This document shows, in pieces, positions 5,252-10,683 of a DNA stretch of 10,683 nt. Source of the stretch: Cenarchaeum sp. GTDB taxonomy: Archaea > Thermoproteota > Nitrososphaeria > Nitrososphaerales > Nitrosopumilaceae. Each line of letters opens with the position of its first letter. Position 1 is the first letter of the stretch. The stretch covers positions 1 through 10,683 of the forward strand of contig JAHRAJ010000010.1 of NCBI GenBank assembly GCA_020027365.1, given 5' to 3'. A program made the translations under genes and the position numbers. The notes below the pieces were generated by a model. It did no database searches and was not told the DNA's origin. It saw only the letters and a program-made list of their open reading frames with translations.

Positions 5252-6717
5252 CCCTTGATCACCCCCACAGGGGCAAGCCTGACCACCCGGGTGGCTATGC
5301 CAAGATCGTGCGAGACGGCCGCGATAGAGTCCACGTCCTTGTAGGCCTCGGGGGTCTCCTCCACCACGCCGTCGCGGGTGAGCGCCCGGATGTGGATGCC
5401 CTTGTCCTGGAGAGACTGCTTGACCCCCTGTTCCGTAAAGTTTCTGCGCGCCTTGGATCGTGACATTGTTCTTCCCGCCCCGTGCGCCGTCGAGCCAAAG
5501 CTGAGATCCATCGAGCCGGGCCGTCCCAGCAAGACCCAGCTGGCGGTGCCCATCGATCCCGGGATGAACACGGGCTGTCCGATGTCGCGGTATCTGGACG
5601 GGACCTCGTCTCGGCCCGCGGGAAACGCGCGCGTGGCCCCCTTGCGGTGGACGACCAGCCTCTTGCGGTCGCCGTTCACGGTGTGCTCCTCCACCTTGGC
5701 AATGTTGTGGGACACGTCGTACACGAGCCGCATGTCCAGGTCGGATTCGGACATCCCAAACACGCGCTCAAACGACCTCCGCGTCCAGTGGGTTATCATC
5801 TGCCTGTTTGCCCATGCAAAGTTGAGCGCCGCAAACATCGCCGCACGGTATGATTCGCCCTCCTCGGACGTGTTGGGGACGCATGCAAGCTCCCTGTCGG
5901 GCAGGGTGATGCCGTATTTTGACATGGCGCGCTCTGAAATACGCAGATAGTCGCTGCACACCTGGTGTCCGAATCCCCGGGAGCCGCAGTGGATCAGGAT
6001 TGCGACCGATCCCCGTTCGAGTCCCATCCGGGCGGCGGCCTCTTTGTCGTGTACCTCGTCCACCCTCTGAATCTCCAAAAAGTGGTTGCCGGATCCCAGG
6101 CTGCCCAGCTGCGGCGCGCCGCGCTTGCGGGCCCTGTCTGACACCTTGCCCGGGTCGGCGCCGCCAATCCTGCCGTTTTCCTCGCACACGTCCCCGTCCC
6201 CGGATGCGCCATACCCGTTGTCCATGGCCCAGTCCACCCCGCGGACCAGCACCTCGTCAAGCTGCGACGGGGTCAGCTTGACGGCACCGCGCGAGCCGAC
6301 GCCCGACGGGATTGAGTTGAACAGGTCGTTGACCAGGTCTTTGAGGCGGGGGCGGACCTCGTCCTCGGTCAGGTTTGTACGCACCAGCCTGACTCCGCAG
6401 TTTATGTCATATCCGACGCCCCCCGGGCTTATCATCCCCTCGTCGGCGTCCATTGCGGCCACGCCCCCGACCGGAAAACCGTACCCCTCGTGGCCGTCCG
6501 GGAGTACGACGCCGTGGCTGACAATGCCGGGGATGGAGGCGACGTTTGCGGCCTGCCGGAGCGTCCTGTCCGACGTCATCTTGGAGATTAGCGCGTCGTT
6601 TGCATAGATTCGGACGGGAACCCTCATCTCGTTTTGCGGGCCGGGTTTTATGACGTACGTGTTGGTTCCCTCCTGCTGGGGCACGGGTGCGGGGGGTTGG
6701 GGGTGGAGAGGCGGCAC
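5248..6717 (-). CDS. rtcB: RNA-splicing ligase RtcB (3'-phosphate/5'-OH ligase)
   Basis: A 489-residue RtcB, which joins RNA 2',3'-cyclic-phosphate or 3'-phosphate ends to 5'-OH ends using GTP and Mn; in archaea it seals tRNA exons after intron removal. All metal and guanylylation residues are visible: Asp104 and Cys107 (YDINCGVR), His212 (GSGNHFLE), His243 (HCGSRG), His337 (VSHN) and His412 (AHGAGR). These track the Pyrococcus enzyme (D95, C98, H203, H234, H329, H404) with an offset of 8-9. No intein is present. The GTG at 6717 is about 31 bp from its TATA box, giving a leader of about 5 nt. A GTG at 6684 would remove a Pro-rich start (PPLHPQPPAP) and is possible. It is the first gene of a three-gene minus-strand operon. 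No archease gene is in the window. Confidence 0.96.
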   Translation of the reverse strand: MPPLHPQPPAPVPQQEGTNTYVIKPGPQNEMRVPVRIYANDALISKMTSDRTLRQAANVASIPGIVSHGVVLPDGHEGYGFPVGGVAAMDADEGMISPGGVGYDINCGVRLVRTNLTEDEVRPRLKDLVNDLFNSIPSGVGSRGAVKLTPSQLDEVLVRGVDWAMDNGYGASGDGDVCEENGRIGGADPGKVSDRARKRGAPQLGSLGSGNHFLEIQRVDEVHDKEAAARMGLERGSVAILIHCGSRGFGHQVCSDYLRISERAMSKYGITLPDRELACVPNTSEEGESYRAAMFAALNFAWANRQMITHWTRRSFERVFGMSESDLDMRLVYDVSHNIAKVEEHTVNGDRKRLVVHRKGATRAFPAGRDEVPSRYRDIGQPVFIPGSMGTASWVLLGRPGSMDLSFGSTAHGAGRTMSRSKARRNFTEQGVKQSLQDKGIHIRALTRDGVVEETPEAYKDVDSIAAVSHDLGIATRVVRLAPVGVIKG

Positions 6718-9095: not shown

Positions 9096-9377
9096 ATGAA
9101 GAGGCTGTCGGATGCAGAGGTCGCCGCCGGGGTGGACTCGCTGGGCGGGGGGTGGAGCGTGCGCGGCGGCAAGCTTCACAGGGACTATGAGTTTGCCAGC
9201 TTTGTAGAGGCGTTTGGATTCATGACCCGCGCGGCCATGGAGGCCGAGAGGATGAACCACCACCCAGAGTGGTTCAACGTGTACAACAGGCTGACGGTCG
9301 ACCTGACCACCCACGATGCGGGGGGCATAACCGACGCGGACATCAGGCTTGCAAGGGCGCTGGACGGCCTGGCATAA
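9096..9377 (+). CDS. Pterin-4a-carbinolamine dehydratase (PCD/DCoH family)
   Basis: A 93-residue, full-length single-domain PCD. It dehydrates 4a-hydroxytetrahydrobiopterin during regeneration of pterin cofactor after aromatic amino acid hydroxylation. The signature NHHPEW (54-59) provides two active-site histidines, and the third is in TTHD (His73). The segment FASFVEAFGFMTRAAMEAE is the helix that precedes the signature. ATG at 9096 is supported by the TATA distance and the family N terminus (LSDAEV...LGGGW). No hydroxylase gene is nearby. Some prokaryotic members are thought to act with molybdopterin enzymes, so the physiological pterin is uncertain. A T-run follows the stop. Confidence 0.92.
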   Translation: MKRLSDAEVAAGVDSLGGGWSVRGGKLHRDYEFASFVEAFGFMTRAAMEAERMNHHPEWFNVYNRLTVDLTTHDAGGITDADIRLARALDGLA

Positions 9378-9380
9378 TCA

Positions 9381-9385
9381 TTTTT
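9381..9385 (+). terminator. Oligo-T terminator after the pterin dehydratase gene
   Basis: TTTTT starts 4 nt after the TAA at 9375-9377. Archaeal RNA polymerase terminates at such T-runs without needing a hairpin. Confidence 0.5.
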
Positions 9386-9456
9386 GTAGAGGGCACCTAC
9401 CACCCAACCCCGGTCACATCATGCGATCACCCCGATCTAATAACCACGGGCCCCAA

Positions 9457-9676
9457 TCTGTTCAATCCGAGTGTACTCGGCTTCTAGTCGTTCAAAAGTG
9501 CGCTAGGCATACTTCCCCCCATTGTCGAGAGACTGGCGATCTGCCGTATGATGGCATCGCATCAATTTTGGGCGAATCAATCATGACGGCGTTTATGCGG
9601 CAAACTCGAAAATCCTGGGAAGTGTGCTAGCTCACTTTTGAACAGACAATGGCCAAACGTACGCAGATTGAACAGA
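9457..9676. repeat. 220-bp imperfect palindrome (MITE-like or large RNA hairpin)
   Basis: This fills most of the 343-bp non-coding stretch 9378-9720. The inner part, 9490-9643, folds on itself almost completely. GTTCAAAAGTG (9490-9500) pairs perfectly with 9633-9643; 9502-9506 pairs with 9627-9631; 9511-9517 pairs with 9617-9623. Pairing continues with small bulges (for example TCGAG 9525-9529 with 9605-9609, and GCCGT 9543-9547 with 9586-9590) to a loop of about 11 nt at 9561-9571. I count about 56 pairs over a 71-nt arm. An outer 10-bp pair, TCTGTTCAAT (9457-9466) and ATTGAACAGA (9667-9676), shares exactly the same centre, with 23 nt between inner and outer parts on each side. I see no target-site duplication and no ORF. 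Confidence 0.8.
9467..9480. repeat. Short perfect hairpin CCGAG-TGTA-CTCGG
   Basis: A 5-bp stem with a 4-nt loop, in the 23-nt spacer between the outer and inner arms of the large palindrome, on the left side only. It may be an independent local structure. Confidence 0.4.
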
Positions 9677-9691
9677 GCCTACAGATACCAT

Positions 9692-9700
9692 CCTTATATG
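9692..9700 (+). promoter_or_regulatory. TATA box of the repeat-protein gene
   Basis: CCTTATATG, with core TTATAT (9694-9699), is centred 24.5 bp before the ATG at 9721. It begins only 16 bp beyond the end of the large palindrome. Confidence 0.7.
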
Positions 9701-9720
9701 TATTAGACATCGTATAAACT

Positions 9721-10683
9721 ATGATGTATAGCGACATGAAGACAAACAACAACAAAACCTCCTTTTCCCGCCTTTTTTCGACAAGGTACAGGATTTGGGT
9801 GGTGGGCGCGGCGGCTCTGCTGCTGCTGTTGTTGTTGTTATTGCTTGCGCTTGCGCTTGCCGCACCCCCGGCCGGATGGTTCGGTGACGGCGGTACACCC
9901 GAGGCGGGGCCCGCCATAGTGCTGTCCCCGGCGCCGAGCACGCCGGACAAGGTCGCCTCGGATGTTGCGTACATAATGGAGGAAACGGGCATCGAATCAT
10001 GGGAGGTGGCACGGGCCGTGTACTGGCAAGAGTACGAGGACGTGGGGGCGGCGATCAGGGTGGTTGAGAGGTTAAAGTCAGAGGGCTCGTTCAACGCCGG
10101 ATACTCGGCGGGCAACAACCCCATACAGATCATATCTGCAAGGTATATTGAAAAGGATGCCGCGGACGCGGCGTACGTCTGGGTCAACTCGAACGCGTCG
10201 TCCTCCCGGGATATTGCATCTGTGACAGGCTGGACCTATGATCTGGGCGAGGCGATCAGGCTGCTAAACGTGCACCACTTTGACGTAGAGGCTGCGAGTC
10301 TGGACGAGATGTACGTCTGGACGCACTCTGACCCCCTGTCTGGCAGGGATGTCCCCAAGGCACTGGCGGACGCCGGCGGCGACGTAGACGAGGCGGTCAG
10401 GCTGATAAAAGAGCACTATGACGCCCGTAGATCAGACACAGATCCCTTTTACTCCGGCCCAAGCGAGCCGTGGGCCGAGGTGTATAACCCGGATGCAGGA
10501 GAGGACGGGGTGCGGGAAGATGACGCGGATCCTGCATGCTCCGTCCCTTGGCGGTACGAGGCGCCCGTCTGGGACGATCCGGCGGGGCCGATAATAACGC
10601 CGGCCGGATACTCAGAGGGGATAATCTGCTCCGACATTGCGCACATAATGGATGTGACCGGCGCAGGATCCGAGGAGGTGGCA
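9721..10683 (+). CDS. Membrane-anchored or exported protein with tandem 40-residue helical repeats (3' end outside window)
   Basis: An open frame of 321 codons from ATG at 9721 to the window edge, with no stop. A basic N terminus (K7, R17, R22, R24) precedes a hydrophobic segment at about 26-48 with ten leucines in a row. The ALA-like end before PPAG could be a signal-peptidase site, so the protein is either exported or anchored with its bulk outside. After a Pro-rich linker come four similar modules: about 80-119 (SDVAYIMEETG...), 148-187 (ADAAYVWVNSN...), 194-233 (LDEMYVWTHSD...) and 304 onward (SDIAHIMDVTG...). Each has xDxxY/H-I/V-M/W near its start. The three complete ones end in D-V/L-x-x-A-I/V-R. 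The pattern recalls UBA-like three-helix bundles, but that is inference. I recognise no named family. The TATA position predicts a leaderless mRNA; Met6 is an alternative start. Confidence 0.8.
   Translation, partial: MMYSDMKTNNNKTSFSRLFSTRYRIWVVGAAALLLLLLLLLLALALAAPPAGWFGDGGTPEAGPAIVLSPAPSTPDKVASDVAYIMEETGIESWEVARAVYWQEYEDVGAAIRVVERLKSEGSFNAGYSAGNNPIQIISARYIEKDAADAAYVWVNSNASSSRDIASVTGWTYDLGEAIRLLNVHHFDVEAASLDEMYVWTHSDPLSGRDVPKALADAGGDVDEAVRLIKEHYDARRSDTDPFYSGPSEPWAEVYNPDAGEDGVREDDADPACSVPWRYEAPVWDDPAGPIITPAGYSEGIICSDIAHIMDVTGAGSEEVA

Follow-up and report, generated by a model that had tools for sequence, protein, structure and literature searches.

The question raised by this locus is what kind of DNA forms the 220-bp imperfect palindrome at positions 9457-9676 of the window (the whole stretch analysed, 10,683 nucleotides), and how it came to stand behind a conserved pterin gene. 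The contig is archaeal and comes from a Nitrosopumilaceae archaeon. The last gene of its conserved block is pcd, encoding a pterin-4a-carbinolamine dehydratase (9096-9377, plus strand; Pterin_4a, E 2.9e-31). The gene order wHTH gene to pcd is common, with gaps, to Nitrosopumilaceae and other ammonia-oxidising archaea, and breaks after pcd. The pcd gene is present in 18 relatives, and a search with the PTPS-domain gene of locus L001 (PF01242) as reference identified a homologue downstream on the same contig in 13 of these, 31-188 bp away in nine and 2.35-3.61 kb away in four (L009, L015, L016 and L047). Among the five relatives with no PTPS match, the contig ends at pcd in two (L003 and L007) and 0.5 and 0.9 kb past pcd in two others (L010 and L011), while L006 lacks PTPS. 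The place taken by PTPS in the relatives is filled in the window by the palindrome, followed by an orphan gene; an insertion in the pcd-PTPS junction of the window is not proven, the far side lying beyond the contig end. PIN-like and transposase-like proteins were recognised by eye within the long pcd-PTPS junctions of relatives, and the junction DNA of L016 includes the apparent end of an IS110-type transposase. L016 (uncultured Cenarchaeum) and L047 (isolate IBTHAUMO2) are sponge symbionts.

The orphan gene (9721-10683, plus strand) is cut by the contig end, and its product has a probable N-terminal membrane helix followed by UBA-like repeats; the UBA_4 match (E 0.0012, 19.0 bits) lies below the Pfam cut-off of 21.8. 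No homologue of the protein was found at E<=0.001 among 7999 scored candidates, and its structure model was too poor for use (mean pLDDT 43.6). A TATA-like box at 9694-9700 (within 9685-9707), located by our own rough consensus scan and readable on both strands, starts 18 bp past the right end of the palindrome and is probably the promoter of the orphan gene.

The palindrome itself is real and non-random, far beyond chance: its self-complementarity score is 80, whereas none of 1000 dinucleotide shuffles exceeds 44 and the best other place in the window reaches 39. An earlier sequence-only reading had described nested arms on one centre, and its coordinates and centre of 9566.5, which the inner part (9490-9643) shares exactly, were right. 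Alignment of the two 110-nt halves gave 83 matches, 18 mismatches and 18 gap columns, and the inner part aligned alone gave 58 matches, close to the "about 56 pairs" counted previously. The mismatches include two G·T and three A·C, where a single T-G opposition had been claimed. Both strands of 9440-9700, folded as that reading had proposed, form about equally good structures, with z scores of -7.1 (plus) and -5.3 (minus) and energies of -105.4 and -101.6 kcal/mol on the two strands. The statement that nothing is encoded here holds so far, as the 93-aa TTG-start ORF which runs across the region (9349-9630) has no Pfam match, and its residues 36-93 had no homologue in our search.

From the outside inwards the palindrome consists of distinct layers. 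The outer left arm (9457-9467, TCTGTTCAATC) is a perfect inverted repeat of the outer right arm (9666-9676, GATTGAACAGA), equalled in 0/2000 shuffles; the inverted pair reported earlier is present, its length being 11 bp and not 10 bp, and the spacers are consequently 22 nt and not 23 nt. These spacers (9468-9489 on the left, 9644-9665 on the right) have the same length and unrelated sequences, and pair at chance level (886/2000 shuffles equal). They are followed by a 33-bp inner core, of which the left part (9490-9522) begins with GTTCAAAAGTGCGCTAG and its partner on the right (9611-9643) ends with CTAGCTCACTTTTGAAC (0/2000 shuffles equal; 94% over 17 nt), and by a middle up to the loop (9523-9610) with weak self-complementarity (2/2000 shuffles equal; fold z -1.8). 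Outer arms and inner core are clearly non-random and the middle weakly so, whereas the spacers are random but of equal length. Exact copies of the word CTGTTCAA are found at 9458-9465 (plus), 9638-9645 (minus) and 9668-9675 (minus), with TCGTTCAA at 9488-9495 occupying a fourth word position, so that each arm holds CTGTTCAA-like words at a distance of 30 bp; the direct recurrence of TTGAACAGA at this distance (9638-9646 and 9668-9676) had been noted before and is present. The window contains four exact copies of CTGTTCAA against 0.18 expected, one of them at 6317 inside rtcB. Spacers which are unrelated in sequence and equal in length, combined with words at 30 bp, suggest double-stranded DNA read by a protein, and this layout points to protein binding sites, which it would suit better than a base-paired stem.

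We tentatively read the palindrome as a decayed foldback (MITE-like) element, an interpretation to which we give slightly less than an even chance. It draws on the strong self-complementarity bounded by perfect 11-bp ends, on the CTGTTCAA-type words 30 bp apart with their unrelated but equal spacers, on the three A·C and two G·T mismatches, which give no sign of kept G·U pairing, on a G+C content of 48.6% versus 61.2% for the window, and on the acceptance of other DNA by the pcd-PTPS junction in relatives (4/13). In its behaviour the palindrome resembles such an element at a junction prone to insertions. A passage of PMC7848895 reports that some sponge-associated thaumarchaeota are enriched in transposases, and this is also in keeping with the foldback reading. 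The low G+C of the palindrome may simply be the composition of an intergenic region, with the right flank at 34% and the left flank at 54%. Against the reading stand the absence of a second copy in the genomes searched, of a target-site duplication above chance and of a recognised transposase gene in the window, and end patterns which are not above controls.

Foldback elements have long inverted arms meeting near the centre, as does the palindrome, which differs in that each of its arms is broken by an unrelated 22-bp spacer and carries two end words. Compared with prokaryotic MITEs, as they are described in passages of PMC10969869, the palindrome is likewise short, non-coding and intergenic, AT-rich in that its G+C lies below the window average (though the right flank is lower still), able to form a stable stem-loop, and furnished with terminal inverted repeats in its 11-bp perfect ends; unlike them, it yielded no second copy, target-site duplication or partner IS in our searches, and its arms fill the whole element. 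The best target-site repeats were 4 bp at the outer ends and 6/7 at the inner ends, which is not above chance, since 377/400 random placements reached at least 4 bp; according to a passage of PMC10969869, such repeats fade with time. Searches of 250 genomes with the end patterns of the palindrome found a match in no more genomes than did their reversed controls (3 vs 6, 6 vs 15 and 10 vs 13), and the three loci from the first of these searches showed no foldback (scores 17, 34 and 30). The earlier proposal of a MITE or a relic of an inverted duplication fits best as regards the synteny break, the G+C below the window average, the conserved end words and the lack of an RNA-type mismatch bias; the second copy, whose absence that reading had named as telling against it, did not turn up in the genomes searched. 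MITE membership is not established, and we withhold the label because no target-site duplication was found and the copy counts cover other genomes only.

The search for further copies, which had been suggested from the sequence, gave none in genomes outside the source species (250 from the family and 400 at class level, in overlapping sets) and none in the 11 genomes of relatives judged nearest, with only a few candidates scored per genome in each of these searches, and none in plasmids or phages. The 250 family genomes yielded 22 short matches at E<=0.1, for 20 of which the loci were examined; together with nine from the 11 nearest genomes these made 28 distinct loci, none with a foldback (best 34 vs 80), and in 25 of the 28 the matched stretch lies within a stop-free frame of at least 114 aa. 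A single match at E<=0.001 in the 400 class genomes fell at a place already matched in the family set. In viral contigs, three end-pattern scans returned no stretches, a fourth returned 26 stretches with matching ends and no foldbacks (best 31), and a fifth at least 120 stretches with matching ends. Two candidates were looked at and rejected. The first, L090, is one match in 250 genomes at E 9.3e-4, where about 0.2 would be expected; it seems to lie between genes and has no foldback. The second (L092/L162, genome G211; E 0.0125, about three such expected in 250 genomes) aligns with the right arm across 51 columns and was judged to be due to chance: the L162 match (around 1497-1543) codes for the C-terminal end of a protein of 64 residues, with the window frame reading SLLNR...RRLNRA, but the N-terminal part of that protein is absent from the window, and its relatives (17 matches in 13/101 genomes) never match past residue 59, whereas the shared words are at 50-64.

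For comparison, 1.26 Mb of loci were scanned in steps of 50, and with runs of N left out only L066 (score 82, 14192-14283) scored as high as the palindrome. The two highest scores of all, in L069 and L003, were runs of N, and L016:8651-8867 (score 77) was a G+C-rich tandem repeat. Separately, another Nitrosopumilaceae genome has at L014:708-890 an AT-rich foldback which at 183 bp is similar in size, and a search of that genome returned only the foldback itself (40/48 candidates scored). At L016:17169-17258 lies a G+C-rich palindrome of 90 bp, for which its 3.2 Mb genome gave 19 further partial matches, possibly a repeat family or possibly only shared base composition.

The main rivals of the foldback reading are a fixed site for protein binding and an inverted duplication of local origin, both of which we consider unlikely. 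Four sites of CTGTTCAA type, arranged as inverted pairs with 30-bp spacing, could form a fixed binding array that serves the orphan gene at 9721 as operator or recombination site. The even site spacing, the spacers free in sequence and the nearness of the TATA-like box speak for this; the 33-bp inner core and the self-complementary middle exceed what an operator needs, and nothing similar was found in the family and class genomes searched. A single-locus inverted duplication that decayed without mobility, which we rate as equally improbable, would account for the 83 matches kept between the halves amid indels and all mismatch types, and for the lack of another copy in family and class genomes, plasmids and phages, while uniform decay poorly predicts random spacers lying between perfect or near-perfect stretches.

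More doubtful still is a structured RNA some 220 nt long, made from either strand, with a minus-strand start placed near the right end, from the TATA-like box read as 9700-9694 and an upstream TCTAAT resembling a BRE. The fold z scores of both strands speak for such an RNA, as does the box, with a score of 11 on either strand (the rough scan found six such sites in the window), yet there was no Rfam match for 9378-9720 even at E<=10, the strands fold about equally well, and pairing between the spacers is at chance level. In an RNA stem under selection G·U should outnumber A·C, and the counts of two against three show no such excess, though numbers this small can only hint. Archaeal SRP RNA is a long rod-like RNA, which the palindrome resembles in folding into a rod a few hundred nucleotides in length, and from which it differs in matching no Rfam family. 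The earlier idea of a large structured RNA finds no support in Rfam or in the mismatch spectrum, and this reading is unlikely. Chance or an assembly artefact is very improbable, as the best of the 1000 shuffles fell far short of the palindrome and an inverted misjoin should leave near-identical arms, not arms with these mismatches and gaps, even if the contig's Asn-synthase-like protein, whose nearest listed relative has 60% identity, is known from this contig only and leaves the sequence without independent confirmation.

If the palindrome is a decayed foldback element, it would be non-autonomous mobile DNA made of two inverted ends joined at the centre. Each of these would carry two CTGTTCAA-like recognition words separated by about three helical turns, to be bound in double-stranded form by a transposase encoded elsewhere. 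Either the element or a rearrangement using it would then sit where the orphan gene replaces the usual neighbour of pcd, and the two may have arrived jointly. It is a long shot that the palindrome represents an undescribed Nitrosopumilaceae family of foldback mobile elements, with ends made of two words on roughly one helix face, that eases the entry of cargo genes at the pcd-PTPS junction. A literature search pairing MITEs with Thaumarchaeota found nothing on the subject, judged by title. Should the palindrome be mobile DNA, it would give Nitrosopumilaceae a non-autonomous element, and it could bear on the entry of foreign genes between the two pterin genes of this junction in the family.
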